Source: Sipunculus nudus
Taxonomy: Eukaryota > Annelida > Sipuncula > Golfingiida > Sipunculidae
Assembly: GCA_026874595.1 (NCBI GenBank)
Contig: CM049322.1
Location: 39,612,840 to 39,676,839 of the forward strand
Reading direction: 5' to 3'
DNA length: 64,000 nucleotides
This document shows positions 29,442 through 56,824 of the stretch, one piece after another. The position numbers were made by a program, and so were the translations under genes. A model generated the notes under the pieces. It saw nothing but the letters and a program-made list of their open reading frames with translations, made no database searches and had not been told where the DNA came from. Each line of letters opens with the position of its first letter. Position 1 is the first letter of the stretch.

Positions 29442-30906
29442 GGAGCATAGTAAGAATGAAAACCGACAAGTCCATAAAGACCGATCAGCTCCAACTAGAA
29501 CCGATCGGCACGTCATTGACATTAAGAGTTAAAGCGAAGAATGATGCTACAATAGCCTTGTTCAACAACTGGACCAATCCCACAGAGGCATACGAGGTAC
29601 ATATCTATACCAAGAATGGTATATTTACATCATTTAAATGGCCGGCGAATAACATAGCGGAATTAGCAAGATTGATTCAACCTCAAAGATTCACTGTCCT
29701 AGTTTCTTCTTGAAATGGGACCACTTTCAGCACTATATTGACTGAAAGAGAATAATAAAAAATCCTGATAGTCGTTCATGAGGATAGACTTGCACGTTTT
29801 ATTGATAAAATTAGAAGATTTATAAAAACTCTTCATTGCTTGTTTATTCTTATTTCATTCAAATTGACACAAGGTGTTTTATTTTAGGAAAGGTCGTTCA
29901 AACCAGTTGTTACTTATTAGTTCTTAAATGCATTATTACTCTTCCCTTCTTATTTGTAAAAACATACAGAAATTCAGATATTTCAATGATACCACGTAGA
30001 TTTTCATGAAGCTTGAAGAAATTTATAATGTCGAATAGGTTTGATAGTGATAAAACCAACTTTTTTTAATGTACACACATTTTATTATCCTTTCGATATT
30101 AACATTATTATCAATGTGAATGCTGAATAGAGCCTCAGAACCTAGGAGCCGCTTTTAACTAAATGTAAGTGATATGTCGGAACTGTAGAAATTATATATT
30201 AAAAGTGATCAGTACTGTGATAGTTATACTCCATTTTGCATTGTGATAAATATATTACATGAATGGTACTTTTATTTGTCTTTAGTTGGCAATCGGCGGA
30301 TGGAGAAATACACGGTCAGTGTTGCGATGGGAACAGCAAGGTTATAACTTTGGGGACACCGGATACATTGGTCCTTTTTTTGGATCAGAACGCATTTAAA
30401 GACTTCTGGGCACGATGGGGGAATGGGCTGATTGCATTTGGTAGAGGAACAGAAGTTGGCAAGGACAGGTGGTTATAGTTGTACCTGTTAAGATTGTGTA
30501 AATATTTTTCGTTTAAAATGTAGTTGTTATCATTATATTTTATTTCTTATATCTCGAATATATACCCTGTCCAAAGCTAAAATACACACTGAAAGTAACT
30601 AATCAAAATATAACAGGATTGCTCATAACCTTTTTGTTAGCTTATAAATAAAGTAACAGGATATATTCCCGCTACAGTTACGACCGTGTTGCGAGCCGAC
30701 CTCTCAAGTTTACGAACGGTAATATCTATCAAACTGCACACATCATCAACTTGTGGGTAAATTTTATTACAACACTTTAATTACCACCTGACGAAGAAGC
30801 CTGTGTGCTTCGAACGCTCGTGTGTTAATAAACAAGTTGGTCTATCTAAAAGGCATCACTCTTTATCTTTACCTATGCTACAAGTACAGGCTAACACGGC
30901 TATACC

Positions 30907-30964
<58 letters not shown>

Positions 30965-32452
30965 CAGTTAATCATTTACAATGTACTGGTGACCTTTAAT
31001 TATAATACTTATATCAAACTTTGACTAATATAGTTCTTTTGTCAAATATATAAAATCTAAGATATTTTTGCACTTTTAGTGGGGTCTCTGTGTTTGTTCA
31101 CCCCATCCCCCGATAGGTTATGACGGGACTTTAATTGGTACCCCAGAGGCTTCTCAATCTGTAATTTCATCAACTTTAAGAACATATTTAATTAAAGCCA
31201 TAAAACATTCAGGTTTTGACAGTTTTTTATCATCAACAAAAATATATGCTTTTGTTTTTGGATGTTAATCACGCAAAAGCCATGTCGTGTGAGACTTGAC
31301 TAATCGAGAACAGCAAAGGCAAAAAAAAACAGATTCATGTCTTGACTCTATTACTTAATATTAACACAGCGTTATAAAAGACGTTACTGTCTTAATCAGC
31401 GAATCAAAATACATAATCACTTTGTTATATTTAGTCAGAGCGTTTTAGTCAATGTTAGTTAATGTATACTCAGTTATTGTTAAGAAATAAAGAAACACCT
31501 GCTTCTCCATTAACAAAGTTCTTATCTGCATATGATAAGAAGTGGTTAATTCAACAGTGGCGTCTTTTATCTTTATGCCTATGTGTTTTGTATTGATTTG
31601 TATAAGAGAAAATTAGTACACAATTATTTTTTCTTTAAATGAATAAATAAGCTTATCTTTTCACGAAATTTGAAACACAAATGGTTTCTACCAAAATATC
31701 GGGCGAGTTCGAAAGCTGATGACCTTAGCCTTCAGCTTCGAGGCCAAATCTGCTGAAATGTATTTATTTTACCAAAACTTTTTAGGTATTTCACATTTTG
31801 TCTTCAATTGTGGTACCCGACTTGTTTCTCTAAGTTCTTGGAACTGTCCAAAAACCGGCGATCTGAGGAGATACAACGTAAAGTAAGCCGAATAACAATT
31901 ACTGTCTTTTGAACACATTCACTTATTTCGTATTTCTACTTCAAATTCAATATACAAGTTGTTTCCGCTGAGTTCTCGGAATAATATGGGTACTGTTGAC
32001 CTTAATGTTTACTTTCAAGGTCAGATATACGCTATTCTAGGACTAGTGTGACCTAATAACTTTGTAAGGACTGAAGTTATTTCCTTCGTATTCGACAAAT
32101 CGGCTATTTTTGGCAAAATAAAAAATCTCGGCGGAGTTAAAGAAAATCGGTGACCTTGACATTGATCTTCAACGTCAAATCTCCTGAACTCTAGAATAAT
32201 TGATTTGAGATTATTTTTACCCCTTAAGTTTTGGGATGGCCCTCGGGGGAAGGCATATATCTGTTTTTACTCTGCAAAACTAAGACTCCTCAAACACGAT
32301 CAAAGAGTTTGTAACATATCAGACTGAAAGATGAATTTGTTTTTCTTCCAGTATTCTTTCCTGGACAGACCCGAATCCTCGTGCTGTTGCCATGGTTGCG
32401 ATTGCAAATGGATATGGGCGTGACGGGACATGGGAAATACCTCAGCACACAG
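29442..32452 (+). CDS. FAMeT-like domain 1 exons of the receptor
   Basis: The Methyltransf_FA (farnesoic acid O-methyltransferase-like) fold begins with LTLRVKAKNDATIALF in exon 29442-29596, which ends GCATACGAG|gtacat. It continues with LAIGGWRNTRSVLRWEQQ in exon 30286-30468. That exon then needs a one-base shift, most simply at the T7 run near 30375, to reach FKDFWARWGNGLIAFGRG. Exon 32352-32452 supplies ILSWTDPNPRAVAMVAIA, the domain's last strand. The domain is usually extracellular and of unclear ligand; despite the name there is no reason to expect methyltransferase activity here. The first exon enters in phase 1, so at least one upstream exon exists. Confidence 0.72.
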
Positions 32453-34846
32453 GTAAAACGAATGAAAATTGAATATTGTAAAAAATACTGTTTTGTTCCA
32501 TACTTATAGCACGGAATTGAGATTTACTAGTATCTTAAAAAATGAAAAATGTAAAATTTAACTGCCTTTTAACACAGGTGACTTCAGAATAAAATAGGCG
32601 TGTTCTCCATTGAAAAAGCTAATACATTTGTTTCATTTTTTTTTCTTAAACATGTTTCTTTCTTACTTAAATTTTTTTTTTCAATCAATAAAAAATTAAC
32701 TTAATATTGTCAGATATAAGAAACATGGCAGGCAAAAAATAAGCTTTGCATTATTGTAATGCTGTAAAAGCGGTTTGCTGTAACTGGTTATCAAAATTCG
32801 TGTATCAATAAAAAAAATATAAAATCCTAAAAATTGTAAACATTGCCTTTAAAAATTATATGCATTTCATAAATACATATTTCACCTGAAAGAACACTGA
32901 TACATTTTAACCTGATTTTATTTAACTGGGATTTTGCCAGGGATGGAATCTTAACACTTAAATACTTAAAGTAGTGCCAGGAGTTCGAGTCTGGTACCGT
33001 TTCATTTCCTGTACTTCTGCTACAGCCGTATGAATATAGTATATAGGATTTCCCAACACACCAGAGTGGGGTCCAAAAGGACCCCCACTCATGAGTACTA
33101 TTTAGATTACTCAGTGCTCGTGCACGAGTACTTTCTTAAAATAACCAAATCACTCATACTGGTACTCGAGTACCAAGTACGTACTCTAAATAACGAGTAT
33201 ATTTATGAATACTTTGGCGTACTTCATTATATGAACATATACTAATAAAATTTAAATATATATTTATAAACAAATAATACATACATACATCGATTCATCC
33301 ATACATACAGACATACATTCATTATACATACATACATTCATACATAGTACGTTCATACACACATTCAAGACTGATGCTGCCAACGATACCCCAAGCTTGA
33401 GGAAGCATCCGAAGGTAAGTTCTCTCCAATGTTAACGTTGTTTGTGGGGGCGGGGGGGGACACTCTAATACGATGCACATTTAGCATAGACACAAGACAG
33501 CAAACAGTAGAAGATCATCCAGTTGGTCACCGATTCAAAAAAGATGTGCTGAACACTAAACCATAGGTTTCAAGCATGCACGTTACATTATAAGTACTCA
33601 GTGCTCGTACTGGAGTACATTTATTGTACTCGGACCCGACTCTGCAACACACGTGTATTATCACAGATCAAGGTATTGACCCCCGCTACGTTTTCTGAAA
33701 TTCTCTATCCAAACCGGCACATACACGCACCCACATACTTCGACACTTACTGGTCTTACTCATTGTCCACATTGCTTTACGAACCATGCCGAGACGTTTT
33801 ATTTCCAACCAAATGAACACACCGTCTTCGGAAAATTTATGCATGGACGCACTTTGCCTACCCAGTTTCTGTTGTCATTATACACCAATATCACTGTCAA
33901 AATATTATAATAAAATATTCATATAATGTACCCGTAACCTTCATTTTGTTATTTCAGCCAAACGAATGAAGATCAAAACACCAATTTGGAAAACGTACGA
34001 GGTGACTTGGTTCTCAACTACGGAAGTAAACAAATTTTCCTTCAGTGTTAAAGCCTGTAAAAATGTCTACTTGGCCTTGGCACAGGAACTCGGGAAAATA
34101 CCGGCGGGAACATATGAAATTGTTATTGGTTACGATAACTCAGCATCAGTAATTAGAATGATTCATGTCAAAACGGAAACAAGTTCAACACCAGATATTC
34201 TGAACTGCAACGAGTATAGACCATTTTGGATAACCTGGATGCAAGGGTTTATTCGGGTAGGAAAAGGGACCGATATTGGTAAGTGCCAATTTGTTATTGT
34301 AATCGCTGAATTAAGTCAAGAATAATAGCATATTAATATGGCACTTTTATTGGCATTTTTATTTAGCTTCTGTATTTATCAATGTTTAATAAAATCAGTT
34401 TAATTGATAACACAGAAATATCAGGAATAACTCCTTTTCAATCTGATTAATTAAGTTCCTGGACAGTTTAATTTCTTATTCTCTTAGCTTCCAGCGTACT
34501 AAGAATATCTACATCGCCTTATTGATGCACAAGACTTTCGTGTACAATATTGAATTAATATATGGATACAGAACCAATAAGGCTCCTAATATTACCTTAT
34601 ATATTCGTCTAAAATACTTTACCATGACGCATATATAAATACAATAGTAAGACAGAGCTAAACTAGTGCCAATTCCTGGCCACCATAAAACATGTAGAGT
34701 TCCTTTTGTAAACTACCGTTCATGCTGCAATATGGTAATGTCTTCAACTTTTCACAATTTAATAACTGTATCAAGAACACCCTTGCTCGATAAAAATCAG
34801 CAGCTATAAAAGATCATATTTGCTTTGCATGCGGAACTGTTCACTC

Positions 34847-34905
<59 letters not shown>

Positions 34906-35984
34906 TAAAAACACATTTGTTTCTATTTTTAAGGATCGGAGGAATTCTTGCAACATAACTTTAGTCACCCGTACACAATAAACGCTGTAGCCATCAGCAC
35001 TTACCGTTCAGTCAAGCGATTGCTGTTCCATAAAACTACAGGTGGATATACTGATTGTTCAATACATTGTACTCCAACTGTCTCAGTTGATTCTTTGAAT
35101 ACTTTGAATCCAAAATGTTACCCATATCTAATTGAAAGGTGGATAAATATTTAGAAAACAAGTGATACGTTATCTATAAGTATAGCCGAATTATCATGAC
35201 AATCAAAACCATACGAATACTTCAGTACAAACAAGTAAATAACGAGTAGAAACTAAGGTCATATCAAGTAAATCTGAAATAACTTGATTGTTACTGATAG
35301 ATTACCTTTAAAAAATATGCAAAATTATACGCAGAACATTACATCATTTTGTTTTGCGTTTTTAAGAATTCTATTTTCACACACTGTCCCATAAATGAAA
35401 AAAGTTAATTTTTTTAAACAAATTCCGCGGAGGGATACCAAGTGCATATTAATTTTTTTAATTATTCTGATAATAAATGCGCCCATTTTTGCACGACTGT
35501 TTTTTTTTTTATTTGAAGAACATTGTACACATGTAACTTGGTTCTTTCACGTTACACCTCATGCCACCGTTGCATTCATTACGCCGATCGAATGACTTGT
35601 GAACAAGCACGTATTGGAAATTAACATTGGATCGTATACACCAACAGCTATGTACTGGGTTCTTGATTTTTTTTTTACTGATGGTCACTTCAAATATGTG
35701 AAATACCTATTACTAATGACGGAGTAACCGTTGGATAATAAACTCATAGTGAATCAGCATTTTAACTCCTTAAAGAGATATATTTTTCTGTCTTGAAGGT
35801 ACTAAGCGACCTTCAATAAACAACTTATTTCAAAGTGTAACCAATTCTTTATGTAGGTCTCGATTATGATGCATTAGCTCCTTTGCAACGCCTGTCTAAG
35901 ACAGTGCATGGCAATATAATGTAGAGAATTAAAATATTGAAACTATCAATGAAGCGAGTAAGTCATTCTCTTCCCCTATCTCTT

Positions 35985-36036
<52 letters not shown>

Positions 36037-36451
36037 GGCTTAATGGCCTGTCTGTGAATATATATCTCGGGTATTTTAGGTATATCCAGTAAGCAGATTG
36101 TAGGGTCGCAGGCCTTTTTTCAAATCTGAAAAGCCCACAATTCTGCAAGTCGTATAATATTTTTTATATACAATATAACGAAAAATAATATAATCGTCAT
36201 AACAAATCACGTTTAACATATATCAACAATGAAAAATCGAGTGTTATAAACACAGCAAAACGACCACTAACATACTGACACCGAGCGCCATATGTTAGCA
36301 ACAAAGTTAATTAAATAATAGCTGTTAGCATTACTGTTACCTCGGCCGAATAATGTGGTCTGCATTAAGCGCCTTTGCAACGCCTGTCTAAGACTATGCA
36401 TGTAGAGAAAATTGAATTAAAATACTGGAACCATCAAAGTTGCGAGTAGGT

Positions 36452-36546
<95 letters not shown>

Positions 36547-39500
36547 CTCTGAAGAAAAACAACACTGTTAATTCACAACAGTCTGTTTCACTCAACAAAA
36601 TGAAATAAACATTATCTGTTAGAATAACTGTTACCTCGGTCAAATAATCACCATAAATTTTAAAATAAAATACTTTAATGATATTTTATAGCATTATATT
36701 CATAACCTGAATATTTCGCTATCAAAAGGTAAAGATTCCGAAACTAGGAAGTATTGAAATTTAACTATGTAAAATGTAAGGTTTGAATGACATGACCGTT
36801 TTGGCGAAAAAAGATTGATGATTGAAACAGTTAATATTAAGTTACAAAAGTTATACAAAGGTTTCATTTTCGGAGTACCTGTTCTAAACATTCAGCAGTA
36901 GCGTGTGAAAAGAGCTACAAAACGTAATATTTAGATTTGCTGGTATTAAGGGATAATCTGAAACATAGTGCAACAATAAAAGTAATGTTGACAAGTAGGT
37001 GCAGCCTGGTATGATAAACAGACGGATTGCATGATATACAGAAAATACGCTTGACACATTGTGGCTAAACTTTTCCATGGAATGTCAATCGTAGTGACCA
37101 CCACGCTTCATCACACGCCGTCAGTCGGTCTTGTATATCAAACATTGAATTAGGCTATTGATCTTTGGTCAATATTATAGTAGACACGATAAAATTAACG
37201 ATAAAATAGACAATGGGCCAGTATAACACAATGGAGCGGATTTATTTTCAATGTGCTGGATAAGTTTGTCCTCGTTGGTTTGTTTCCATGGAAATGTTCA
37301 CGGTTTGGAGATAAACCGCCGAGAAGACCTGTTTTTGGATGTGGGCCAGATAAGGTCCACAGACCAACGGAGTTTAATCAGTTAGATAGGTACTATCCTG
37401 AAAGATAGACACTTCTAATGTATTCACATGATTAGGAAACTTTTGTTTTGAACATCTAAAGGCCTTCCAACACAATTTATTTTCCTATAAAATCAGTGGT
37501 TCATCCTGAAAAAATGAGGTTTGCATATGTTCCCATTGTTTATCACAATAAGCATTTAGGAAATGTTTGTTATTAAGTTATTTACCATTTAACCCGCAGT
37601 TTGTTCTGTCGGGACATGGGGCCTCCACTGTGCTTTCAGTTGCTCCGTCGGTTGTTACGACGTCTGTGATGGAGAAATAGGCACTTGTCAGTGTAAAGAT
37701 GGCTGGTTCGGTCCTAACTGTAACAATAGTTGTTCAAGCAACTGTGTTGACACGAGATCATGTGATAAACAACAGGGACACTGTCTTTGTAAGCCAGGAT
37801 ACAAACCACCCACGTGTGAATCTGGTAAGTACTCTTCTACCTTACTTCGTAAAATAAGACCATCAACATTAAAACCACGTGCTTGCAAAGAGTTTAAACT
37901 GTTCACTTTTTCCGAATTTAAATAAAAATAAGTCACATCTGCATTAGAGCGACCAATATATACCGCCATCCATTTATCCCATAGAGCCCCCTGTCCGCGT
38001 TATTGTCGGTAGCTATCCTTGGAAATGAAAATGTTTTTCTCAATCCACTGTATAGCATATTTGACCTTATTTTATATATTTATTATTTTTTTACAATTAA
38101 GTGTATTCTGTTTAGCAGTATACTTACTGCAGTTTCGATGTGTAAACCTTTGAATGAGTTGTGATATAACGGATAAAGGTTAATTCCCCTTGGAGTCACC
38201 TTCACTCTTAGGGGAGGAACCTATTATATTTAAATGGAGCGATGGGTCGCCCTGAGGCGTTGTGGAATTTTTATGCTTCAGATCCGTGTATGTTTCCTGT
38301 GAAAAGAAATGACAATTATTCCATCAGGCATGTAATGTCTGAAAAAAAAAACTTTACTATAACTGAAATATGCTCATTTATTTTATTAAGCATAGGATTC
38401 TAACCAGACAAACATTTAGACACTCATTCATTCATAAATTTTACTGACAAACTCTCCTGCATAAGACATTTATTTGATTTGAAATGGGATGTTATTCTCC
38501 ATCACCTATATCGAAGAGGTTTACACACGCACTCTGGACTTATTCCGTCTGATTGACAAAATCCTTTTGTAGGAAAAAGAACTTTTATGTTAGATATTCT
38601 AGTGTTGGACTTCCTGAATACCATTCATCAAACTTTTCTATGTAACCGACTTTTGTTGCTCAGTGATAGAAGTCAGAATTCAAAGCCGGGAGATCATGAG
38701 TTTGAATCTCAGCCGAGGCGGTGCGATTTTTCACGGTCGGCCCCCAAACCATGGTGAGCGCTCTTCAGGCTTAACTAAAGGTATACGATATAAAGATACT
38801 GAGAATTTTTTTGCAGAATGCCCAAATGGCTACGGGGGCGCTGGTTGTACTGAAATGTATTCAGAGAATTGTGCCAACAAACATAATTGCAGCAAAATAG
38901 ACGGGTCGTGTACTTGCAAACCGGGATTCAGAGGAGTCAGTATTTGATGATTTATTATTATTATTATTACTAACCAAATGATCCTTTTCCTTTGGATTAT
39001 TGTCTCGCATGAATAACACGTATTATCCCAGAGTTATTCTTTCCAACACTCTGATTGTGTCTGGTCAAATCCCAAGTTCCGCTTTTTCAGTTGTATTATG
39101 GTCTTTGCCGCTTCTGTACATTTAACACACAACCCGGGCAAATGTGGAGAAGGCTTTCGTAAATCGTGTCCTAATATAAAGTGTCGTCAAGTTATCATGA
39201 ATTTGTATTCTTTTCAATGAATAATATAAACAAATTATATTTTTAATTAAAAAGGAGTTTGTTATAATATCATTAAAGGATAAAAATACACCTTCAGCAT
39301 GTTCCCACTTTCAGAACTGTGGTCCGTTTGCGTAAAATTGTCCTTTTTTTATAATATTTTTGGGTATGCATCTAATGTATCGATCTTACATAAATATATA
39401 TATAATGTTATGCTTTCTTTTTTTTTCATACTTTAACCATGCCTTGACTTTTTAGCCGATGACTGTTAAGCTGGCATTGTACAAATGTTTGAACTTTGAC

Positions 39501-42500: not shown

Positions 42501-43283
42501 TGATAAAGTCTGAAGCATTAGGTTAATTTTTACTTTTATTGCAATCATCAGTCTCTGCCTACGGGACTCCGTGATCCATGCGTGGTAGGCAGCACAGCGG
42601 AAGCATCTGTCAAGAACAAGTTCAGGAACATTATAGCATGTAGGTATTAAAAGGATGTCGCTATTTTTATTATTATAACAAATGAAGGACGTTTTAGGAA
42701 TAAATGAACGGAAAATTCTTTTCCCATAAATAGTGCTAACATTGCTTAAATGGCTTCTAGTCTTACAAGAAAGGATAACCGCAGTCAGTTTAAGCATATT
42801 ATATTTGTTTCAACATACATTGTATTCATAACATTATTCATTCAGTTTAATTTCACTTATTATGACTAAATTATTTTATTACCGAATAACTAAACTGTCC
42901 TTTTTTATGCTAAACATTATAGGGGTACGGTGTAAAATGTAAAATACTATGCAGATATTGTAAATAATATATTCATGAGTCTTAAATAAAATTCTAGACA
43001 TAGAACTGTATGCTTGTTTCCTGTACAGTTAACATACATGTATTAAGTAGCCATTAGGGAATCATACACAAACAGTATGCATATTAAAACTGCGGAAAGG
43101 CTCGAACTACGCTCTTTACACACATACCATCCATCATTCAGCATGCCATTACTGATTTTTTTAATGATGTAAGGAATCTTCCACAGATGACCATAGCCGT
43201 GTAAACATCAGGGGGAGACACTCCTATTTCGAAGTATATCAACGCTAGTTTCATAAATGTAACGGTTGAAACGTTCAACTATG

Positions 43284-43343
<60 letters not shown>

Positions 43344-43824
43344 GATTTAGTTCAAAGAAAGATGAAACAAATGTGTTCATAAAATGTATGTGGTTATCCT
43401 GAAAAAAAAACAATATTTTTAAGATTCCATAACGAAGTAACCTTATTGAGCCCTTTTTCATTTGATGCCCATAAAAGTGAAAAGAAATAACCAGACCACC
43501 ACATTTCGGGTTCTCTGGTTTACTCCACCTCTCGACGTTACCGAACGTCACCACCTGATTGCCTCGAGTACCTATCGTAACTGTTTATACCATCCATGTA
43601 ACAGTTTAACGTTTATTTTGAATAACACAAATACGTTTATGAGCGTTTCCGGATAGAATGAGTTAAGTATTCTTTAAACTTACAGGGCTATGGTGCACTG
43701 AAATCTTTCATAGCGTCACAAGGTAAGGTACATCTTTGTTTATTCCAAATGTTCTACCTGATTTATCGGTGTTTACAAGGTCTGCTTTGAATTATTACTC
43801 TCCTGATCAAAGATAAACATGCTG

Positions 43825-43879
<55 letters not shown>

Positions 43880-46800
43880 TGTATTATATTAATATATACA
43901 TGTATATATAAATATATGATGTTTATTTAACAGGACCAGTAAAAGAGACAGTTGCAGATTTTATACAGATGTTGTGGGAGCAAAAGGCTCTGTAAAAAAG
44001 GCCACTGTATAGCATATTTGACCTTATTTTATATATTTATTATTTTTTTACAATTAAGTGTATTCTGTTTAGCAGTATACTTACTGCAGTTTCGATGTGT
44101 AAACCTTTGAATGAGTTGTGATATAACGGATAAAGGTTAATTCCCCTTGGAGTCACCTTCACTCTTAGGGGAGGAACCTATTATATTTAAATGGAGCGAT
44201 GGGTCGCCCTGAGGCGTTGTGGAATTTTTATGCTTCAGATCCGTGTATGTTTCCTGTGAAAAGAAATGACAATTATTCCATCAGGCATGTAATGTCTGAA
44301 AAAAAAAACTTTACTATAACTGAAATATGCTCATTTATTTTATTAAGCATAGGATTCTAACCAGACAAACATTTAGACACTCATTCATTCATAAATTTTA
44401 CTGACAAACTCTCCTGCATAAGACATTTATTTGATTTGAAATGGGATGTTATTCTCCATCACCTATATCGAAGAGGTTTACACACGCACTCTGGACTTAT
44501 TCCGTCTGATTGACAAAATCCTTTTGTAGGAAAAAGAACTTTTATGTTAGATATTCTAGTGTTGGACTTCCTGAATACCATTCATCAAACTTTTCTATGT
44601 AACCGACTTTTGTTGCTCAGTGATAGAAGTCAGAATTCAAAGCCGGGAGATCATGAGTTTGAATCTCAGCCGAGGCGGTGCGATTTTTCACGGTCGGCCC
44701 CCAAACCATGGTGAGCGCTCTTCAGGCTTAACTAAAGGTATACGATATAAAGATACTGAGAATTTTTTTGCAGAATGCCCAAATGGCTACGGGGGCGCTG
44801 GTTGTACTGAAATGTATTCAGAGAATTGTGCCAACAAACATAATTGCAGCAAAATAGACGGGTCGTGTACTTGCAAACCGGGATTCAGAGGAGTCAGTAT
44901 TTGATGATTTATTATTATTATTATTACTAACCAAATGATCCTTTTCCTTTGGATTATTGTCTCGCATGAATAACACGTATTATCCCAGAGTTATTCTTTC
45001 CAACACTCTGATTGTGTCTGGTCAAATCCCAAGTTCCGCTTTTTCAGTTGTATTATGGTCTTTGCCGCTTCTGTACATTTAACACACAACCCGGGCAAAT
45101 GTGGAGAAGGCTTTCGTAAATCGTGTCCTAATATAAAGTGTCGTCAAGTTATCATGAATTTGTATTCTTTTCAATGAATAATATAAACAAATTATATTTT
45201 TAATTAAAAAGGAGTTTGTTATAATATCATTAAAGGATAAAAATACACCTTCAGCATGTTCCCACTTTCAGAACTGTGGTCCGTTTGCGTAAAATTGTCC
45301 TTTTTTTATAATATTTTTGGGTATGCATCTAATGTATCGATCTTACATAAATATATATATAATGTTATGCTTTCTTTTTTTTTCATACTTTAACCATGCC
45401 TTGACTTTTTAGCCGATGACTGTTAAGCTGGCATTGTACAAATGTTTGAACTTTGACTTTACTTATTCTTATGTAAATGGCAAATTACTGTAAACTCTGC
45501 AGTGTGCATGAATTGGAATGAAGATGGAGCAGACACATTTGTGACTGTGAAAACACTATTTCTCACTAGTTATGTTCATTATAGTTATTCGTTCAATTGT
45601 GCGTTCACACCTTATAGCTTGTGATAACGGAACATTAGGATTTAACTGTGAGAGCACCTGCCACTGTAAAAGAGGACATGATGATTGCAGTAAGGTCAAC
45701 GGAACATGCAAGAGTGGACAGTGTGTAGAAGGAAGGGAAGGCGTGGCTTGCCAAATGCTGAGTACGTTTTAAGCGCTTAACACAGACGAGTGTCGCCTTC
45801 ACTTTATCTGGCACATCTTAATATGACTTTTTTATATGTAAAATTTCTTTATAACAAGCTGCCTACCTATAAGGTAACTCGATGCGCAAAGTCTACCTTC
45901 CGCGCTTTCTATAGATGTATTATCAACAGCTACTATAGTTGTCATCAAAAGATATTTACATATACATTGATCGGATGAGTAATGGGAAAATCCGAGCTTT
46001 TGGTGATTTCACTAGAGTTTGCCAACTTTCAGCTAGCCTTCTGTTCCTTTTCTTGAGATAATTTAAACCAACGATAATCCTCTAGCTTTCATACCATAAT
46101 TTACAATTCCTCTGAGGAGAAGAAACCAAGAGCACTTATGAATTCAAATTATTTTGAAAAATGCGTCTTCATAAAGCTTAAAAATAAAGTTGAAAGAATA
46201 AGTGGAGACCTATTTTCCTGACTGGTCAAAAAGGTAAATATCTAACTGTAAGATAATTAAAATTTATGTAATTAAATATTAAATGTCGGGCTTTTTAAAA
46301 ATCAAATTCAGATTTGACATTTAAAGAATTAGATTAATAAAAAAAAATGTTATAAAGAGACGAACGTTGGACAGATGTTTCATTTTGTGTTGCAATCTTG
46401 AAATAAATTATTTTATTGTTATCAAGGTTTATTTTCAAATTATGCCGTTGCAGCTTCTGCCTCTTCCTCACCTTTAAGTATAGCAATAGGTGTTGGGATT
46501 AACGCAATAATAATTGTGATTATAGCCACGATTCTGGTAATTCTCTTTTTGAGGTGAGTACCTTATATAACCCGTAAATTAAAAACATAGGGAGACCTTA
46601 AATCTAAATTTAGACATTCGTTTAGACAGGTAAACGATGTAGATTATTAGAATGTCTAGCTGCTTGTCCAATTTGCCAGATAAATTGATTGCTACTATCC
46701 AAAGTTGCAATTAAGCGAAGTTAAGTGTTTTTTTATAACTTAATTAGAATAAATCGACTCCCACTTTTCGTTAAAAATGTGCATTTTATAAAACCACAGG

Positions 46801-49240
46801 TGGCTAGTATTATGATAATGATAATATAGAAATGCATGTCCTGCATTTGCCCTACTTGAGATGAGAGAGTAGTTTATGTTGTGTTGTCATGACTGAGCAA
46901 ATACTATAAAATTAAAAGAATTTGTATAGTTGTTTATGTTATAGATTCATCTCATTTCATTCAGCCTGATTAAAGACTGGATTATTTCACGTCGAACTGT
47001 CTGACAGTTCCAATGTGAATGGTACTTACAATACATAATAAGTAGAATCATATAATTTTACGTAAAATTCTATCACATTTTACATTGATTACAAAGTTTC
47101 TGTCACAGCGTAATGTATTCGCTATTAGTAATCATTTGTATGAATATTTGATCAACACTGTGACAAAACAAAGGTCATTATATTATCAAAAGACAACAAA
47201 TGATAATGATATAAGCACTGGGTTGTAAATAAAATACAACAGCGGAGCGAATCTAGACTACATAAATATATTTCGAAAATGACCTTTTTAAGTTCAGGAA
47301 ATATAAACCTAATGTTCAGAAAATTAACCGTGTAACAAAATTGGTATACCTACTGCTTATTGATAATTTGGTAGACATTGCTTACTGAGAATTTTGATTT
47401 ATAGATTAGACAAATAATGGTATACTTGTTCTCACAGCTATGCTTTGCTGTGAACTTTACTTTTCTTACTCCTGATAACTGATGGGCTATAACAAGTCAT
47501 TATTGCAGTTTAATTTTACAAAGCAGAAGACAAAGGCGGAATGATTCTGCCAAGAGTGAAAACCACGTAACACTTGGTACGTTTCTGGTTCTATTTGCCT
47601 TTCATAATTAGAAGCGAAATCGGTCCTCGAAGTTTTTCTAAGTACAATTGTAATATGCAACCAAGTATACTCCCGACGTTTCTAGCAAGCTTAACAACCC
47701 TTGAGATTCATAATAATATCGGGTGTATTCTTAACATCTTGAAAGTTCTTGATTTTAGAAAATTTAAAAAATACTTGTATTTTCTGTACCATAAACAGTG
47801 TAATATCATCGTTTATGTTTGCATCAATATGTAAATTTTCAATAGTGAGTGGTTTGGATTTATTTATCTGTAATGTTATGCTTGTGTAAATTTGGACTTT
47901 TGGGCATTTACATAACGTGTAAAAACAACGGCAGATGAATAAATAAAATGTTAACGTATCGCCAGGCTGAAGGCAATTTTAGAAAGGTCAAGAATTTTAA
48001 ACACTTAAAAACACAATTAAACCTTTTGAAAATACCTTAAAAAAGTAAGAAACAATATTGGTAACATAAATCTGTAATTCAGTTTTGATGATCTTTTATT
48101 TATGATCATTTAAAATGATAGTCAATTTTGACTTTATTTAGAGACACTGCCAGCGGTTAAAACTGCTCTACCCTCATCAAACAAAAATGTACCCGAAGAT
48201 ACGGTCAACTATGAAAACTTGGGAATACGAGTTACAGAGTTCCCGGATTATGTCCGAGAAATGAAGCAAACTGAAAATGGGTTCCAAGAGGAATATGAGG
48301 TATTTCATAATGTAATTTGCATGTATCTATATTTCGAGTAACATGTGAATTTACTGGCATTTAAGATACTTCGGGTTAACATTCAAGAGTTGTACTAAAG
48401 ATTTAATCTCGGCATGATTGTGCCTTCCTGTTGCTATTAGATTAACCTGTGACCTGTTGATAAAGTCTGAAGCATTAGGTTAATTTTTACTTTTATTGCA
48501 ATCATCAGTCTCTGCCTACGGGACTCCGTGATCCATGCGTGGTAGGCAGCACAGCGGAAGCATCTGTCAAGAACAAGTTCAGGAACATTATAGCATGTAG
48601 GTATTAAAAGGATGTCGCTATTTTTATTATTATAACAAATGAAGGACGTTTTAGGAATAAATGAACGGAAAATTCTTTTCCCATAAATAGTGCTAACATT
48701 GCTTAAATGGCTTCTAGTCTTACAAGAAAGGATAACCGCAGTCAGTTTAAGCATATTATATTTGTTTCAACATACATTGTATTCATAACATTATTCATTC
48801 AGTTTAATTTCACTTATTATGACTAAATTATTTTATTACCGAATAACTAAACTGTCCTTTTTTATGCTAAACATTATAGGGGTACGGTGTAAAATGTAAA
48901 ATACTATGCAGATATTGTAAATAATATATTCATGAGTCTTAAATAAAATTCTAGACATAGAACTGTATGCTTGTTTCCTGTACAGTTAACATACATGTAT
49001 TAAGTAGCCATTAGGGAATCATACACAAACAGTATGCATATTAAAACTGCGGAAAGGCTCGAACTACGCTCTTTACACACATACCATCCATCATTCAGCA
49101 TGCCATTACTGATTTTTTTAATGATGTAAGGAATCTTCCACAGATGACCATAGCCGTGTAAACATCAGGGGGAGACACTCCTATTTCGAAGTATATCAAC
49201 GCTAGTTTCATAAATGTAACGGTTGAAACGTTCAACTATG

Positions 49241-49310
<70 letters not shown>

Positions 49311-49791
49311 GATTTAGTTCAAAGAAAGATGAAACAAATGTGTTCATAAAATGTATGTGGTTATCCTGAAAAAAAAACAATATTTTTAAGATTCCATAAC
49401 GAAGTAACCTTATTGAGCCCTTTTTCATTTGATGCCCATAAAAGTGAAAAGAAATAACCAGACCACCACATTTCGGGTTCTCTGGTTTACTCCACCTCTC
49501 GACGTTACCGAACGTCACCACCTGATTGCCTCGAGTACCTATCGTAACTGTTTATACCATCCATGTAACAGTTTAACGTTTATTTTGAATAACACAAATA
49601 CGTTTATGAGCGTTTCCGGATAGAATGAGTTAAGTATTCTTTAAACTTACAGGGCTATGGTGCACTGAAATCTTTCATAGCGTCACAAGGTAAGGTACAT
49701 CTTTGTTTATTCCAAATGTTCTACCTGATTTATCGGTGTTTACAAGGTCTGCTTTGAATTATTACTCTCCTGATCAAAGATAAACATGCTG

Positions 49792-49848
<57 letters not shown>

Positions 49849-50723
49849 TGTATTATATTAATATATACATGTATATATAAATATATGATGTTTATTTAAC
49901 AGGACCAGTAAAAGAGACAGTTGAAGATTTTATACAGATGTTGTGGGAGCAAAAGGCTCCATTGGTTGTTATGGTGACGAACCTTGAGGAGAAGGGAAAG
50001 GTACATGACATGACATTCGGCGTTATTGAAAAGCGATATTGGAGACTTTACCATGTTGCTAAATTTGTGAAACTCCTCTTTACAAGGAGTTCGATTTGGA
50101 GTTTATACGAAATATACAATGACATTCAGTTTATAACGTTTTATATATTTTATATATCATATATCTATTTCCGCAAAATAAAGTTCTTTTTTTTATTTTA
50201 AATTAGGAAAAATGCTATAAGTACTGGCCTGAACAGTTACACACCGGAACCATATGTCACCGAGGAATCGTTTTGAAGAAAATTAAAGAAGGAAAATTTC
50301 CGCACTTTATCATACGGCACCTTGAGTTTGAAAAGGTTCACCGAATTTTAGCTGTTGTCAGAGCCGCTACCTACTGACTGACTATGTATTAGTCGCATGG
50401 TCAAAATAAATGGTTTCTTTACCTTCTGATGGCATACCATGAATTTGATATCATATTTAATTCTATTCCCAAATAATATAAATGTTAATGTTTTACATAT
50501 TTTATCTTTATTCTTACAGTTCTGTCTACTCCAAAACTGGCACTTTTGTAAAACAGAACAGGAATGTTTTCGCCTATTTTACCTATTTCTTACATTATTC
50601 TGAATCAAATATTTGTAATTATGCTTACTGGAATATAACATGAAGTATATGTAAGTAAAAAATCGATTGTTGTACAAGTTCTATACATATAGTTTCCGGT
50701 TCTGGACTGTAACGTGAAAAGTT

Positions 50724-50782
<59 letters not shown>

Positions 50783-53700
50783 TTTTATCTTAATCTGAAT
50801 CCACAACCAGGGAATTTATGTAATTTATCTTTCTCATAAAATGAATCCATCTTCAATTTCAAATCAGGATAATACTAGGCAGCCATGGACACAGATACAA
50901 TACATATCCTGGCCTGACCACGGGGTACCTGAGAGTCCAGCAGCATTTCTTGAATTCCATCAAAAGGCAAAACAAATGTACAAACCAGATATTGGACCAA
51001 CAGTAGTTCACTGCAGGCAGAGCACATCTAATGTACATATATTTATTCAGGTAATACGCATGGTTATATATTTCAAAGAATTTGCCTTAAATATTTAATT
51101 TGGGAAATTTGTAGAAACTCGTGTTTAAAACCTGTAGAAAGAGAATAATCAGCTGGTAAGTTAAAACAGTTCGGTAATTTTTTTTATTGCTGAGGGTTAA
51201 GTTTGCAAAAGTCAGAGAAATAATAACAAACATCTGCTTTTTTAATTTTATTTTAATTTGCTTATATAGTAACCTTTTCCTAAACAAAAATATAACGAGA
51301 CGATTGTTCGAATATCGAGGCATCTTAATCCAGTTGTGTTAGAAACCTATTCCGTTAGGCAGCGAATACATGCATGTTTTCCCTAAGTCAGTATATGCAT
51401 TTTAAATACTGTCAGGAACTAATGGAACACACAGCGCCGCTCATTAAAATTAAACTTTTTTATTTTCATGTAACACAGTGCCTGTTTAACTATACTAAAT
51501 GACCCGCAGCTTTCCACCGTTCTTAAAAGGTGATCTATGTTCTCAGTTCTGATTTGTTCTATACATATCAACGATATGTGAAGAAGCAAACTCTGTCATG
51601 TTCTTCCGTAAGTGTATTACCTTAATTACATTTTACCGTATGGGATAACGTTACAGTTTGCAAAGTTTATTGTAAATCATTGGCATAAGTGCTGGCGTTG
51701 GTCGGACTGGGACATACTTGGCTGTGGACTATCTCCTAGAGCAGGCAGAACGTACAGGCTTCATCAGCATAAGTGATTGTGTCAGATTGATGCGGAAAGA
51801 CCGGGTCAACATGGTACAGAGCCTGGTGAGTGCGGCCATCTGTAGGAGAAATAGGAAATAAGTAAAAGGTACCATGTACTAAAATATGTACCAAAATATT
51901 TGTAATATGATTTTTACAGATGAATATTAAATGCTGAAAGGCGATATTTGTATATGTACATCCTTTTGACAGCGGATGGCTAGAGCACAAACACACACAC
52001 ATTTTCTTTAAGAATAAAGCTTACCTGAGAACGTGAATAATCTTTTAGAGTTAATGTGATGCCTAACTCTAAGAAGCACGGACGATTAGGTGTATTCATT
52101 TTTGATATTCTGATAAATACAGCTTTTGTTGTATTTTAGGACCAGTACGTGTTTATACATGAGAGTCTGCTGGAGGCACTACACTGCGGGAAGACGGTGT
52201 ACGATGTTGCCAGCTACGAAGGCGCATCCAGCGCGGAGAAGACAGATCTGATAAAACAATACGACGTGAGTTCAATTGTAAATGTGTAAATTAGCGAAAC
52301 CATTACTCCTGAGACTGTAATTAAATGCATCTCATTTGGTTTGTATTAATATATCCCATTTTATGAATATGTAAGAGACCTTTACAGAATGATACTGTAC
52401 AACACAGCCAAGGCACGAGAGTCCAAAGTACTAGGCGTTTTCCACGTTAAATCAAGATGCATATCATCCGTCACACGCGCACACACATATGAATATTCAT
52501 ATATATATATGACATTATTTTTGTAGATGCTTGAGAAAATGAAACCTGTTGTGTCCAGTGCCAACCTGGCCCCCGCCAAAACTACGGAAAACAGGAAAAA
52601 GAATAGATCCCAGGATGTACTTCCTAATTCTAAGTTTCGCCCTCTGTTGAGAACGAATGTTGCAGAAAGTAACGATTACATCAATGCAGTTTTCGTGCAT
52701 GTAAGTCATTGCTGCAGTCAAACATATGTTTAACTGTAACATTGTTAAAAACTATATAAGAAACCTTCTGAATTGAACCTTCTGATTAAAATCAAGAAAT
52801 GTGTTAATTACATTTCCCGGAAGCCTGACTTATGTTGTTAATATATGATATATCATTTTAACTACGTTATGGATAAATAAATTTAAAAACGTTGAAGAAG
52901 GCACTGATAACCTACCTATGCCGAGGCATATTGAATGCGTCATCACTTTTACATGTAATGTGTTGCCAAACCCGATCTGAGTAGTATACGGAAGACTAAA
53001 TCATTTCGCTTAAATTCAAAGATGCGTGCCTGGTGACCATTCGTCTGGGTAACTTTGGTTAACACAATATACGTGCTTTGAAAGAAAAAGATAAAAATAA
53101 CATATTGACTGGCCTGTTTTTGTTTTAAATGGGTACCTTGTATTTTAATCTCTGTGGGCATGTAGCAAAGAATAGCATTAAGGAACAATAAATAAAGATG
53201 TCAGGAGGAACGTGCGTTACCAGAATATCCTGAAACAAAGCCCGATATATGCTTGTTGCCGAATCCTCATCTATGATAAGACCACAGTTGTGGCCCTGAC
53301 CTTTACACTAAGGCTCTGTAATGGTGAAATTGTAGATCGTGCCAAAAACTGCTACATACACACATCAAAATACATCCGGTCCTGTCTTTGGTAGTAAATG
53401 AGTCCTTCTGGCAATATTAACTCATTCATGCCATGATATTTTAATGAAACTTTATCCCCTAAGATCCTTGTAAACCGGCCGTCATTCAAACATGAGAAAC
53501 TCCCGGAACTTGTTGCGAGCGGACATTGATCGACTAGTTCCCTGTACGGTCCTTAATTAACGCCTACTTTTTTTCAGTTCCAACAGCGGTCATATCCGAG
53601 CGGGGTCCCAGTTTAAACCCATTGCAAAGAACTGTCGGACACTAAATACAATGATGGCAAAAATATTAGGTCTCTCGGTATAATTATGGACGTGTAGGGC

Positions 53701-56700
53701 AATTGAGCATTACATTGTTTTTACAAGCTTTTCAGAAGTTTTATAAATTATCCAAAGGCAACGAAAAGGTAATATGTTGACACGGCCTAAAAACTCACAT
53801 GCGATTCCGAAGGGTCCCCTTATTCGGAACCATAAAGGGCTTTCACTGTAGCGCTGAACTCCAGACTTTGATGAAGAGCCGCAAGGCGAGAAATAAAGTC
53901 CCTTGGCTAAGACAAGATGTATGTTAACAATAAAAGCAGATTGAATCTTCCAGGGTTACCAGAAGAAACATGCCTTCATTGCTACGCAGAGTCCACTCCC
54001 AAGTACCGTGCTTGATATATGGAGACTCTTGAAAGACCACGAAAGTAATACAATTATTGCGCTTAATGATACCGGGTCGGAAAAGGTGAGTCGCCATGCG
54101 AAATTAAGCTTAGAAAATCCAATACGAACACTGTGTTTCCTTAAGTTTAATTTATGTCAACAGGGATATCAAATAAAGCAGTAAGTTATATTAGCTATCT
54201 ATGACGAATATAAGTAAATTATATTATTATTACATTTCAGCTATTTTTGTCATGTTTCCTTTGCATTCTGTGCTATTTCAATGAACGCTTATCTTTCACA
54301 ATCTTATAATCCCTTCGTCGCATGTTATCTGTTTAGCAAGTTATTTGGTCATGTTAGCAATTTATGGTTCATATCAACTCATTGATCATCATTTTATTAC
54401 TAAGGCTAGTCCAATATACTGGAGCAGAGAGGAAGAAAAAATCAGTCCATTTGTCGTAGATATAGTGGAGGAGACAGAAAGCAATGGTTACCTCAGGAGA
54501 CATCTTATATTCAAATATCAGGTATAAGATAATTTACGTTTTTAGACGTCTAAATATCGCTGTTAAAACATTGTTCTGTACAGTAGGTATTCAATGACTT
54601 TTTATCGAGACAATGATGCTGAAGGCACCTGTCGGGAACCTCACGCATTGATCTAAGAGGATAAAACACACGTGTTCCGCGTTTATCGTCAACAAGCAAA
54701 ACTGATAAACAACTAAAAAAACTTTAAATGCACTTTTCATATTTTGATTTATTCTTCATATTGAACATATTTTTTTTCCTAACGTACCCACCACAGGCAT
54801 AAAAAAAATATAACATAGTAAGGCCACTCTACATATATTTATATAACTTTCAAACAATATAAACTAGCATAAAATAATTACCAACTAATCATGAACAGTA
54901 ACGTAAGCGGCTAAGAAATTTTACAAGGACACATTTAACGCCTATATTGAATTATTACATGATTACAGGACGACAATATTTATGACTCGAAAAAAAATTT
55001 GTTTCAGGCTGTGGGGGGGGGGGGGGGGCTTGACCTCAACTGCTAACCTCAGCTAATGAAATTTTTTCAATTCATTTCAGGATGAAGAGAGAAAAGTGAT
55101 ACAGTTTCAAGTCAAATCCTGGGCTCCTGGTACACTACCAGCAGCAGCAACCCTCTTGCGTTTGTACGGAGATGTAAAGAACTGGCAGCAAGAGTCCGGG
55201 GACAGCTGCTTCATCGTTCACTGTCTGTGAGTGATAAAGCAGCAGTACTTTGTCGTGGGAGATGTATATGTGTTTGTCGTATAGACACAGATCGTCAGAG
55301 ATACGTCGAACGACGTTTAATTGGTACGGTGTACGTCATCAGAGGTCTCTATGCTGTTTAATGAAAGTCCTCATATGGCCTGTAATACACTTTGGACTGT
55401 AGGCCTCATTATGTTATTTGGTACTCCGGTAAAAGAAGTGGTTGAAATGGATTATTGGTGCTTAACTTCCTAAACAGATATTCCTTGTTGATGTTGAGGC
55501 GTACTTTAATGTAAACCATAAGAAGACAAATCAACATCTTCAGTTATTTATATTTAAACACTCATAGCATTACGCACAAATATAACTATCTGATTACAAA
55601 TCATGAACCAACTGCCATTTTGCTTAGATAACATGGAGGCCTTGTAATAAGCGCCATAAAGACATGCATGTCTGAACGTGTTTACCTACCGGGTGTTTAA
55701 AGGCGACATTCCTCACGTACACGTCATTTTGTCATTTGGTGCATTTTCCTATGTGATTTGGTGGTGTAGGGGATTGGATGTGTAATGTTAGTTTATAGGT
55801 GCAGTCTGTCGGAGAGGGGTCGATCAGTTTAGGGGGATCACTTACGATTGGTCCATCCAAACTAGATTTCTAACCAAACTTATGTCAATCTGTAGATACG
55901 GTGCAGCAAAAACAGGCCTTTATATCTGTCTGTGCCACGTGTGTGACAAGATAGAGCGGGAACAGGAAGTCGATGTGTTCCACGCAGTACAAAAAATCAG
56001 AAAGAGTCAGCCATTGTTCATCACCGACAAGGTATGTTTGTATTTAAAATATATATTGTAATTATACTACTAGTTTGCAAAGAAATCTTTACTGGTATGC
56101 CTATATTAGTAACTTGCATAAAAACTTTACACAATTTGTCTGTCATGAAAGACAATATCAGAACAAGATTTATTGAAGTTCAATAACAAGGATAATGTTT
56201 CTTGTAAAGTTTCCTATATCTAAATTCCATATTTAATATGATTTTATTAATGATTATTAGATTAATTCTAAATGTCTAACATATCAGAAGACAGTCATGT
56301 GTCATGATGTAGAAGCTTTTTTTAAGTATAGACTTTAATGGTTAAGCTGGGAGTTGTTTTAAACATTATTAACAAAACCATCCGCTTTCTCGTGGTATTA
56401 AGCGGCGCAGTTCCATAAATCCAATCGTGTACTCTAAAACTAGACCCTAACTAAGCTAACCCGCAAGAATTTTATGAAATAATACAATCCACCTTTATAA
56501 CACCATGTCTTAGGGTACGTTATGGAATAGAGTTAGAACAAGTTTGTTTGCTTGCAATAGTGAGTTTGCGTTATAAGGTACCGATACTATAATATGTGCA
56601 GGTATAACTAATGATCTGTATGATGCACATTCTTATGTGAACTACATGTATCACGTTGCTGAAAATTATACTTAAATTTCCCGGATGCTGGACTTCCGAT

Positions 56701-56824
56701 TGACTTTATTTTTAAACTTATTATAACGTTCTATTTCTAAATATTTCAGGAACAGTACGAGTGGCTCCATCAGGCGGCATATGAATACATCATTTCATTT
56801 AGTATGTATGCAAACTTTAAGTGA
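29442..56824 (+). CDS. Receptor-type tyrosine phosphatase with FAMeT-like and EGF-like ectodomain
   Basis: A single-pass membrane receptor predicted to bind an extracellular ligand and dephosphorylate phosphotyrosine through D1. Order: FAMeT-like domain 1 (exons 29442-29596, 30286-30468, 32352-32452), FAMeT-like domain 2 (33958-34278, 34934-35041), EGF-like exon 37600-37824, a duplicated block of EGF, TM, juxtamembrane and early D1 exons, the rest of D1 (50207-52265) and D2 (52527-56824). All splice phases agree from 30286 onward except two exons out by one base (30286-30468 and the one at 43187/49144). Joining FAMeT and phosphatase exons into one gene rests on shared strand, phase-1 compatibility at 35041/37600 and 37824/38817, and absence of a terminal exon between. 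The 5' end with the signal peptide was not found. With frameshifts uncorrected the gene would be nonfunctional or make truncated products. Confidence 0.7.
30786..30906 (+). mobile_element. Retroelement 3'-end-like fragment (Penelope-like?) before (AT)n
   Basis: CCTGACGAAGAAGCC, a small GAAGC/GCTTC hairpin, then GAACGCTCGTG and TAATAAAC are followed by CTACAAGTACAGGCTAACACGGC and a long AT tract. This layout recalls the CTGA-hairpin-GAA motif reported near ends of Penelope-like retroelements. Assignment is tentative; no reverse transcriptase is present. Confidence 0.3.
30909..30961. repeat. (AT)n microsatellite
   Basis: About 53 bases of uninterrupted AT dinucleotides in the second visible intron of the receptor gene. 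Confidence 0.97.
33062..33644. mobile_element. Nonautonomous hAT-like element, 583 bp with 8-bp target duplication
   Basis: The ends are CAGAGTGGGGTCC (33062-33074) and its near-perfect inverted partner GGACCCGACTCTG (33632-33644), with one mismatch in 13. The element is flanked by an exact 8-bp direct repeat CAACACAC at 33054-33061 and 33645-33652. The interior is rich in GAGTAC/GTACTC words, such as GGTACTCGAGTACC, which would be subterminal transposase sites, plus a (CATA)n tract at 33275-33365. An 8-bp duplication with CAG-type ends is typical of the hAT superfamily. It lies in an intron of the receptor gene. Confidence 0.82.
33958..35041 (+). CDS. FAMeT-like domain 2 exons of the receptor
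   Basis: Exon 33958-34278 carries FSFSVKACKNVYLALAQELG, YEIVIGYDNSASVIRM and FWITWMQGFIRVGKG, an excellent match to the Methyltransf_FA consensus. Exon 34934-35041 supplies the closing strand (INAVAISTYRSV). Both junctions are phase 1. Unlike domain 1, this domain has no intron at the YE|IVIG position, so the two domains differ in gene structure. No frameshift was seen in this domain. Confidence 0.8.
34850..34900. repeat. (AT)n microsatellite
   Basis: About 50 bases of AT repeat shortly upstream of the acceptor of exon 34934. Confidence 0.97.
35877..36034 (+). repeat. Direct repeat unit with (CT)n(AT)n, copy 1
   Basis: CCTTTGCAACGCCTGTCTAA, then a diverged body, then GCGAGTA, a CT tract and an AT tract. 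The same order is found at 36369-36545. The unit is about 160 bases long. Confidence 0.7.
36369..36591 (+). repeat. Direct repeat unit copy 2, with half of the 14.4-kb inverted repeat
   Basis: CCTTTGCAACGCCTGTCTAA..GCGAGTA..(CT)n(AT)n as in copy 1. It is then followed at 36545-36591 by AACTCTGAAGAAAAACAACA and onward, 46 of 47 bases identical to the outer arm of the inverted repeat at 14419-14588. Confidence 0.75.
37600..37824 (+). CDS. EGF-like repeat exon of the receptor
   Basis: A 225-base symmetric phase-1 exon encoding about 75 residues with regularly spaced cysteines: WGLHCAFSCSVGCYDVC, GTCQCKDGWFGPNC, then CDKQQGHCLCKPGYKPPTC. This corresponds to roughly two EGF-like/MEGF-type modules. 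It is not part of the duplicated block, so it is shared by any isoform. The donor is TCTG|GTAAGT. Confidence 0.85.
38045..43990 (+). repeat. Tandem duplication, copy 1 (about 5.95 kb)
   Basis: Repeated almost exactly at 44002-49959. The offset is 5957 bases up to the AT tract near 43290, 5967 after it and 5969 after the second microsatellite. Besides the two microsatellite lengths, the only base difference I noticed is C at 43955 versus A at 49924. Introns match as closely as exons, so the event is very recent or artefactual. Confidence 0.95.
38817..43995 (+). CDS. Receptor exons, duplicated block copy 1, ending in a truncated phosphatase exon
   Basis: Exons: 38817-38939 (EGF-like), 39661-39804 (EGF-like, ends CQML), 40497-40596 (TM: IAIGVGINAIIIVIIATILV then ILFLR), 41552-41619 (basic stop-transfer, SRRQRRND), 42185-42342 (juxtamembrane, RVTEFPDYVREM), 42552-42639 (LPTGLRDP; VKNKFRNIIA), 43187-43258 (YDHSRVNI; KYINASFIN; out of frame by one at a G5 run), 43686-43722 (FIASQ) and 43934-43995. 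The last exon opens GPVKETVADFIQMLWEQKAL and meets TAA at 43993-43995, two bases into the duplication filler. It has no donor. If used as a terminal exon it would give a membrane protein with EGF modules but no WPD or HCX5R catalytic motifs. Alternatively the block is skipped in favour of copy 2. Confidence 0.65.
43290..43331. repeat. (AT)n microsatellite, copy 1 of the duplication
   Basis: AT tract just downstream of exon 43187-43258. The counterpart near 49247-49300 is about 10 bases longer, which is the main length difference between the duplicates. Confidence 0.95.
44002..49959 (+). repeat. Tandem duplication, copy 2 (about 5.96 kb)
   Basis: Begins CCACTGTATAGCATATTTGA, exactly matching 38045, and continues past its homologue's end into the rest of the phosphatase exon. 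It is preceded by an 11-base filler (TGTAAAAAAGG, 43991-44001) with no match at either original boundary. Confidence 0.95.
44774..50000 (+). CDS. Receptor exons, duplicated block copy 2, continuous with the full phosphatase
   Basis: Exons homologous to copy 1: 44774-44896, 45618-45761, 46454-46553 (TM), 47509-47576, 48142-48299, 48509-48596, 49144-49215, 49653-49689 and 49903-50000. The last is intact (WEQKAPLVVMVTNLEEKGK, donor GTACAT) and leads into the exon at 50207. The D1 start has the KNRY-equivalent KNKFRNIIAYDHSRV split by an intron after GCAT. Exon 49144-49215 carries the same extra base in AGGGGGAGAC as copy 1. Read literally, the frame would stop shortly after (CGC TAG). Confidence 0.75.
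50207..52265 (+). CDS. Receptor D1 phosphatase catalytic exons
   Basis: Exons 50207-50335 (EKCYKYWPEQ; FIIRHLEF), 50868-51016 (QYISWPDHGVPESP, ending in VVHC plus two bases), 51690-51825 (AGVGRTGTYLAVDYLL) and 52140-52265 (DQYVFIHESLLEAL). Together they carry every D1 hallmark: KCYKYWP, the WPD loop, HCSAGVGRTG with catalytic Cys and Arg, and the Q-loop region RVNMVQSLDQY. The Ser of the P-loop is completed across a predicted GC-AG intron (donor GC 51017-51018, acceptor AG 51688-51689). Using the GT donor at 51051 instead would break the frame. From 49653 onward no frame damage was seen in D1. Confidence 0.85.
50336..50867 (+). other. Intron within D1 with long (AT)n
   Basis: The donor AAAAG|GTTCAC is weak and the acceptor is AATCAG. 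It contains an AT tract at about 50729-50780. No other feature seen. Confidence 0.6.
52527..56824 (+). CDS. Receptor D2 phosphatase-like domain exons (pseudo-phosphatase)
   Basis: Exons 52527-52700 (NRKKNRSQDVLPNSKFRP; YINAVFV), 53954-54085 (KKHAFIATQSPLPSTVLDIW), 54405-54521 (SPIYWSREEE), 55081-55226 (VKSWAPGTLPAAAT; ending SCFIVHC plus CT), 55896-56031 (YGAAKTGLYICLCHVCDKI) and 56750-56824 (EQYEWLHQAAYEYI, stop TGA 56822-56824). All phases agree. The WPD loop reads WAP and the P-loop HCLYGAAKTG, with Lys in place of the catalytic Arg. The domain is therefore expected to be catalytically dead, as D2 domains of many receptor phosphatases are, and to act in regulation or binding. The protein ends a few residues after the domain. 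Confidence 0.85.
52701..53953 (+). other. Intron within D2
   Basis: About 1.25 kb between GTGCAT|GTAAGT and TTCCAG|GGTTAC. I see no repeat or RNA gene that I can name in it. Confidence 0.6.

Follow-up and report, generated by a model that had tools for sequence, protein, structure and literature searches.

A candidate receptor-type tyrosine phosphatase gene with FAMeT-like and EGF-like extracellular modules in Sipunculus nudus

Introduction

Can modules of the PF12248 (Methyltransf_FA) type, here called FAMeT, form the extracellular part of a receptor-type protein tyrosine phosphatase (PTP)? The question is raised by a locus of the sipunculan worm Sipunculus nudus (GenBank assembly GCA_026874595.1), which occupies positions 29442-56824 on the plus strand of the window, that is, the whole 64-kb stretch of DNA analysed here (contig CM049322.1, positions 39,612,840 to 39,676,839). 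In an earlier note on this DNA, two FAMeT-type domains, EGF-like modules, one transmembrane (TM) helix, and a pair of phosphatase domains (D1 and D2) were proposed to be linked by splicing into one gene. The ectodomains usual among receptor phosphatases are of the FN3, Ig, MAM, or carbonic-anhydrase-like type.

The papers on FAMeT are cited here from excerpts. In these, the function of the domain is unclear, perhaps not that of an enzyme, and the transfer of a methyl group to farnesoic acid is doubted for the family (PMC10015273). PF12248 is reported in an abalone shell protein (PMC6003135) and among mussel shell-repair genes (PMC8194122), FAMeT is combined with DM9 in insects (PMC5712788), and its role in sea-star adhesive proteins is stated as unknown (PMC9382459).

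Results

Gene model and domain order

The window has a GC content of 35% over 64 kb and holds animal-type genes with introns. Raw reading frames of the plus strand were scanned with Pfam over 29001-38000 (all three frames), 37901-50000 (two of the three), and 50001-59500 (all three), and the PF12248, EGF-type, and Y_phosphatase pieces all fell within 29-57 kb. A gene model was assembled by hand from splice sites, which were scored with hand-made matrices. It comprises 25 exons from 29442 to 56824 with 3283 coding bases, ending with the stop codon at 56824; the 1094-residue protein lacks its N-terminus and carries an X at each of two frame breaks. Two PF12248 modules are followed by about three EGF modules of the laminin/MEGF type, a TM helix, D1, and a degenerate D2, and this domain order is real. 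The outer limits given in the earlier note, the end of the FAMeT exons at 35041, and the start of the EGF exons at 37600 were all reproduced, and the Pfam search of the translated exons that it had suggested found Methyltransf_FA, EGF, and Y_phosphatase alike. A tRNA scan and an Rfam scan at gathering thresholds gave no hit, and an NCBIfam scan gave no match with E below 0.04.

FAMeT modules

The first module is encoded by exons FAMeT1a (29442-29596, phase 1 in and 0 out, with a PF12248 match), FAMeT1b (30286-30468, entered in phase 0 and requiring phase 2 at its exit), and FAMeT1c (32352-32452, phases 2-1), which holds the domain end and extends the match to profile position 136. The second is encoded by a main exon (33958-34278, phases 1-1; PF12248 at 1.1e-13 in the raw frame) and by FAMeT2c (34934-35041, phases 1-1), where the match reaches position 129. 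The two Methyltransf_FA-type domains recognised earlier thus score 74.2 bits (146-residue segment, X at the break) and 67.8 bits (143-residue segment) against a cut-off of 24.2, covering positions 19-136 and 3-129 of the 140 in the profile, and 131 bits in two stretches when the whole joined protein is scanned. The modules share 35% identity, and their inner introns differ.

Two other ways of joining the FAMeT1 exons were rejected. A GC donor after 30458 was dropped since the lost domain end turned up at 32352-32452, in an exon whose phase-2 acceptor is matched by a GT donor after 30468; a 61-bp mini-intron (30341-30401), which would restore the frame, is unlikely, as it deletes domain-like sequence and lowers the score from 74.2 to 64.0 bits. 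Pattern searches of viral and prokaryote contigs for relatives of the FAMeT pair gave 58 and 67 matches, none of which was confirmed (records close to the genome of the window may have been excluded), and a sequence search for relatives with a solved structure gave none that was convincing (best E 0.62 and 0.17).

EGF modules and transmembrane segment

About two EGF modules lie in exon EGF a (37600-37824), followed by EGF b (44774-44896) and EGF c (45618-45761), all three of phases 1-1. The EGF-like modules of the earlier note are recovered by PF00053 with 25.4 bits in three stretches (cut-off 21) when the 251-residue EGF-TM segment is scanned alone; in the whole joined protein all EGF-type matches stay under their curated cut-offs, PF00053 giving 16.7 bits in two stretches. 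The TM exon (46454-46553, phases 1-2) encodes a helix at 46474-46551, and a single strong hydropathy region (peak 3.05), in agreement with the one helix claimed before, was seen in a previous 1021-residue version of the model that lacked the two FAMeT end exons. A Stevor match over the TM segment in the Pfam list is probably due to chance.

The helix is followed by a basic stop-transfer sequence, RRQRRND, supplied by a small exon (47527-47576, phases 2-1) that was located in the first copy of the repeat described below (41570-41619) and whose letters are identical here; this exon bridges the phase gap between the TM exon and the juxtamembrane exon (48142-48299, phases 1-0). That these two exons could not be joined had been considered, as no linker was recovered under strict search settings; with relaxed settings, two overlapping candidates with a common donor emerged, and the shorter was used.

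Phosphatase domains

D1 is spread over eight exons: D1a (48509-48596, phases 0-1), D1b (49144-49215, phase 1 in and 0 needed out), D1c (49653-49689, phases 0-1), D1d (49903-50000, phases 1-0), D1e (50207-50335, phases 0-0), D1f (50868-51016), D1g (51690-51825), and D1h (52140-52265). Y_phosphatase matches D1 with 242.8 bits (X at the break) and D2 with 167.4 bits, in keeping with the D1-D2 pair proposed before, and the whole protein with 401.2 bits in two stretches; the Pfam list also includes related phosphatase models such as DSPc over D1. The WPD, HCX5R, and Q-loop motifs have catalytic roles in PTPs. All are present in D1: WPDHGVP at 50910-50930, HCSAGVGRTG divided between D1f (VVHC, 51003-51014) and D1g (AGVGRTG, 51691-51711), and the Q-loop VQSLDQY, in which DQY of D1h joins VQSL of D1g.

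D2 begins with three exons that match the Y_phosphatase profile (52527-52700, 53954-54085, and 54405-54521). The next (55081-55226) has WAPG (55120-55131) at the usual place of WPD and ends with IVHC (55213-55224), and the P-loop continues in 55896-56031 to read HCLYGAAKTG, with lysine at the usual place of arginine; the final exon (56750-56824) terminates in the stop codon. D2 is probably inactive because WAPG and HCLYGAAKTG replace the usual motifs, so that both the WPD aspartate and the P-loop arginine are missing.

Among the Protein Data Bank chains listed, the best single-domain matches to D1 are PTPRK (232 bits), PTPRT (227), PTPRM (223), and 2nv5 (214.5). Two-domain chains (PTPRS, LAR, alpha, and others) outrank these by summed score, the figure for D1 of PTPRS by itself being 209.6 bits, and the best matches of D2, also by summed score, are D1-D2 receptors. 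An R2B-like D1 may be suggested as a lead, not as a placement in a tree.

Tandem duplication

Part of the locus is present twice in the assembly. A near-identical tandem repeat on the plus strand covers 38045-43990 (copy 1, 5946 bp) and 44002-49959 (copy 2, 5958 bp), with an 11-bp filler between the copies, which differ by one substitution, 35 bp from the junction, and by 12 gap columns in two dinucleotide repeats (microsatellites). Two of the EGF exons, the TM exon, and the exons for the early part of D1 therefore occur twice, their counterparts in copy 1 being 38817-38939, 39661-39804, 40497-40596 (helix 40517-40594), the linker exon given above, 42185-42342, 42552-42639, 43187-43258, 43686-43722, and, from 43934, an incomplete D1d, since copy 1 terminates within this exon. 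The exons from EGF b to D1c can be obtained from either copy.

An assembly artefact is the likelier origin of the repeat, given the near-identity of the copies and the closeness of the sole substitution to the junction; one substitution in about 5.95 kb, together with length differences in two dinucleotide repeats, suits a single sequence assembled twice. A genuine, very recent copy of 5.95 kb, leaving a spare EGF-TM-D1 cassette that splicing must skip, appears rather doubtful, even though the filler is of the kind that end-joining can leave and a splice from copy-1 D1c (43722, phase 1) to the complete D1d (49903, phase 1) would preserve the phase. Whether real or false, the duplication is compatible with any reading of the gene given below, and the readings are therefore not all mutually exclusive.

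One gene, a dead copy, or two genes

The claim that splice phases join all parts holds for 22 of the 24 exon junctions. It fails at FAMeT1b-FAMeT1c and D1b-D1c because exons 30286-30468 and 49144-49215 each contain an internal frame break. For FAMeT1, whose rightward part lies in the next frame, PF12248 gives 74.2 bits when the frames are joined with an X versus 41.5 or 43.1 bits for either frame alone; for the start of D1 the corresponding profile scores are 68.2 versus 12.9 or 47.9 bits. Both breaks shift the frame in the same direction and each is near a run of G; the exact site of the first is not fixed, and the region of the second reads identically in copy 1. The breaks may be assembly errors or mark a broken allele.

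Overall, the best reading is probably that of a single gene for a membrane receptor-type PTP with a FAMeT-EGF ectodomain. The FAMeT exons are on the same strand as the phosphatase exons, every exon border between the FAMeT1c donor and the TM-exon acceptor, both included, is of phase 1, and the D1 motifs are intact. Phase 1 is the usual border for shuffled extracellular modules. A search of 35042-37590 for a signal-peptide exon (ATG start, hydrophobic, phase-1 donor) gave no candidate at either of two threshold sets, and one gene is therefore favoured over separate FAMeT and EGF-phosphatase genes. Upstream, over 27304-29441, the same type of search gave a single candidate, a weak and unproven exon of 19 residues with a phase-1 donor at 28231-28288 on the plus strand, which is also included among five rows over 5700-29442.

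Several points weigh against this reading, and the earlier note mentioned neither the frame breaks nor the GC donor, the weak splice sites, or the duplication. In addition to the two breaks, the donor after 51016 (D1f) is GC; by the hand-made matrices, the donors of EGF b (-4.3), D1e (-3.7), EGF c (-1.3), and D1b (about 0) and the acceptors of D1g (-3.9) and D1a (-0.1) are weak. The splice sites were picked with the phase known, and the phase agreement is therefore consistent with one gene rather than an independent test of it. Finally, the frame of FAMeT2c stays open until it meets a stop codon near 35152, and nine AATAAA/ATTAAA hexamers, counted without a chance control and frequent in AT-rich DNA, lie in 35041-37600; this region could thus hold the end of a FAMeT gene of its own.

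Part of this evidence would also suit a recently dead copy of such a receptor gene, in which the profile-backed frame breaks, the GC donor, the weak splice sites, and the duplication that cuts the exon from 43934 are signs of decay. We consider this unlikely, as the other 23 of the 25 exons are free of in-frame stops, the catalytic motifs of D1 are preserved, and the breaks shift the frame alike near G runs, as is often the case in sequencing errors. Two adjacent genes, one for a secreted two-FAMeT protein with its end near 35152 and one for an EGF receptor phosphatase that begins upstream of 37600, are very unlikely: besides the open frame and the hexamers, they would account for the 2558-bp intron between FAMeT2c and EGF a, the longest of the 24 except the one spanning copy 1, and stand-alone two-PF12248 proteins are described in crustaceans (PMC10015273), but the separate receptor lacks a signal-peptide exon candidate in 35042-37590 (only one weak candidate being present upstream of FAMeT1 as well), and the phase-1 donor of FAMeT2c is compatible with the EGF acceptor.

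Surroundings of the gene

Elsewhere in the window, an MFS transporter open reading frame lies at 3093-4262 on the plus strand (PF07690, 80.2 bits). Between it and the receptor locus are open reading frames for a YqaJ nuclease (21354-21836, plus strand), DDE_Tnp_4 (22768-23447, minus strand), and THAP (26872-27303, minus strand), which we take together to resemble a DNA transposon of the ISL2EU type. Downstream, a C-type lectin exon at 62791-63048 on the plus strand is barely over the PF00059 cut-off (22.8 versus 22.6 bits). CT/AT microsatellite stretches at 14341-14588 and 36454-36591, about 22 kb apart, match each other, and 14419-14588 contains a self-inverse repeat. At 28607-28773, GATAA is repeated in a short tandem array, and a unit of 70 bp is present about twice.

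Discussion

The gene may be pictured as encoding a single-pass receptor-type PTP with two FAMeT modules and about three EGF modules of the laminin/MEGF type outside and a catalytic D1 with D2 inside. The FAMeT pair would act in binding or adhesion, to matrix, mineral, or glycan, and not as a methyltransferase. Ligand binding could cluster or relocate the receptors and in this way alter where D1 dephosphorylates tyrosines, while D2 may serve as a regulatory pseudophosphatase. It is tentatively suggested that FAMeT-EGF receptor phosphatases form a working class of invertebrate receptors, in which the FAMeT pair would sense extracellular matrix, the mineral of the shell, or glycans of microbes and relay this to the dephosphorylation of tyrosines; haemocytes and mantle are possible sites. 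In the oyster, more than 40 receptor-type phosphatases were expressed higher in circulating agranulocytes than in granulocytes and, in another comparison, proteins with EGF-like domains are part of the phosphatase-activity set (excerpt of PMC13070813).

PF12248 modules recur across adhesive, shell, and complement-like proteins. If they form part of a membrane receptor whose enzymatic output is known, an assay would become available for them, namely which ligand alters the phosphatase, and the repertoire of receptor-phosphatase ectodomains would grow by one type. Among the matches listed in a search of the open-licence literature for FAMeT, farnesoic acid O-methyltransferase, Methyltransf_FA, or PF12248 together with tyrosine phosphatase, there was no relevant paper, and database entries with this domain order may well exist; FAMeT-EGF modules outside an ordinary PTP pair are a combination for which no description was found in that literature.

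Comparison with known systems

The R2B receptor phosphatases PTPRK, PTPRT, and PTPRM resemble this gene in the catalytic domain, where they give the top D1 scores among the single-domain chains listed, and differ from it outside the membrane, where this gene has FAMeT and EGF modules. R2B members carry MAM, Ig, and FN3 there. None of these three was found when the model, whose N-terminus is missing, and the raw plus frames over 29001-38000 were scanned with Pfam; therefore, the gene is not classed as R2B. PTPRK is named in a figure legend on a vent snail (excerpt of PMC7895826).

The remaining parallels concern the ectodomain. CPAMD8 has PF12248 among its representative domains, although it belongs to the thioester-protein family and has no phosphatase in the excerpt of PMC9363628. 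The crustacean FAMeT proteins share the tandem PF12248 arrangement, and the insect PF12248-DUF3421 proteins share PF12248; both are termed poorly characterised, and the excerpt of PMC10015273 describes no phosphatase domain in them. The sea-star footprint proteins Sfp3, Sfp4a, and Sfp7 are secreted adhesives, for which the excerpt of PMC9382459 mentions no phosphatase, and Sfp7 also has a hyalin domain; however, they combine FAMeT with EGF-like domains as the present gene does, and Sfp7 has two of each.

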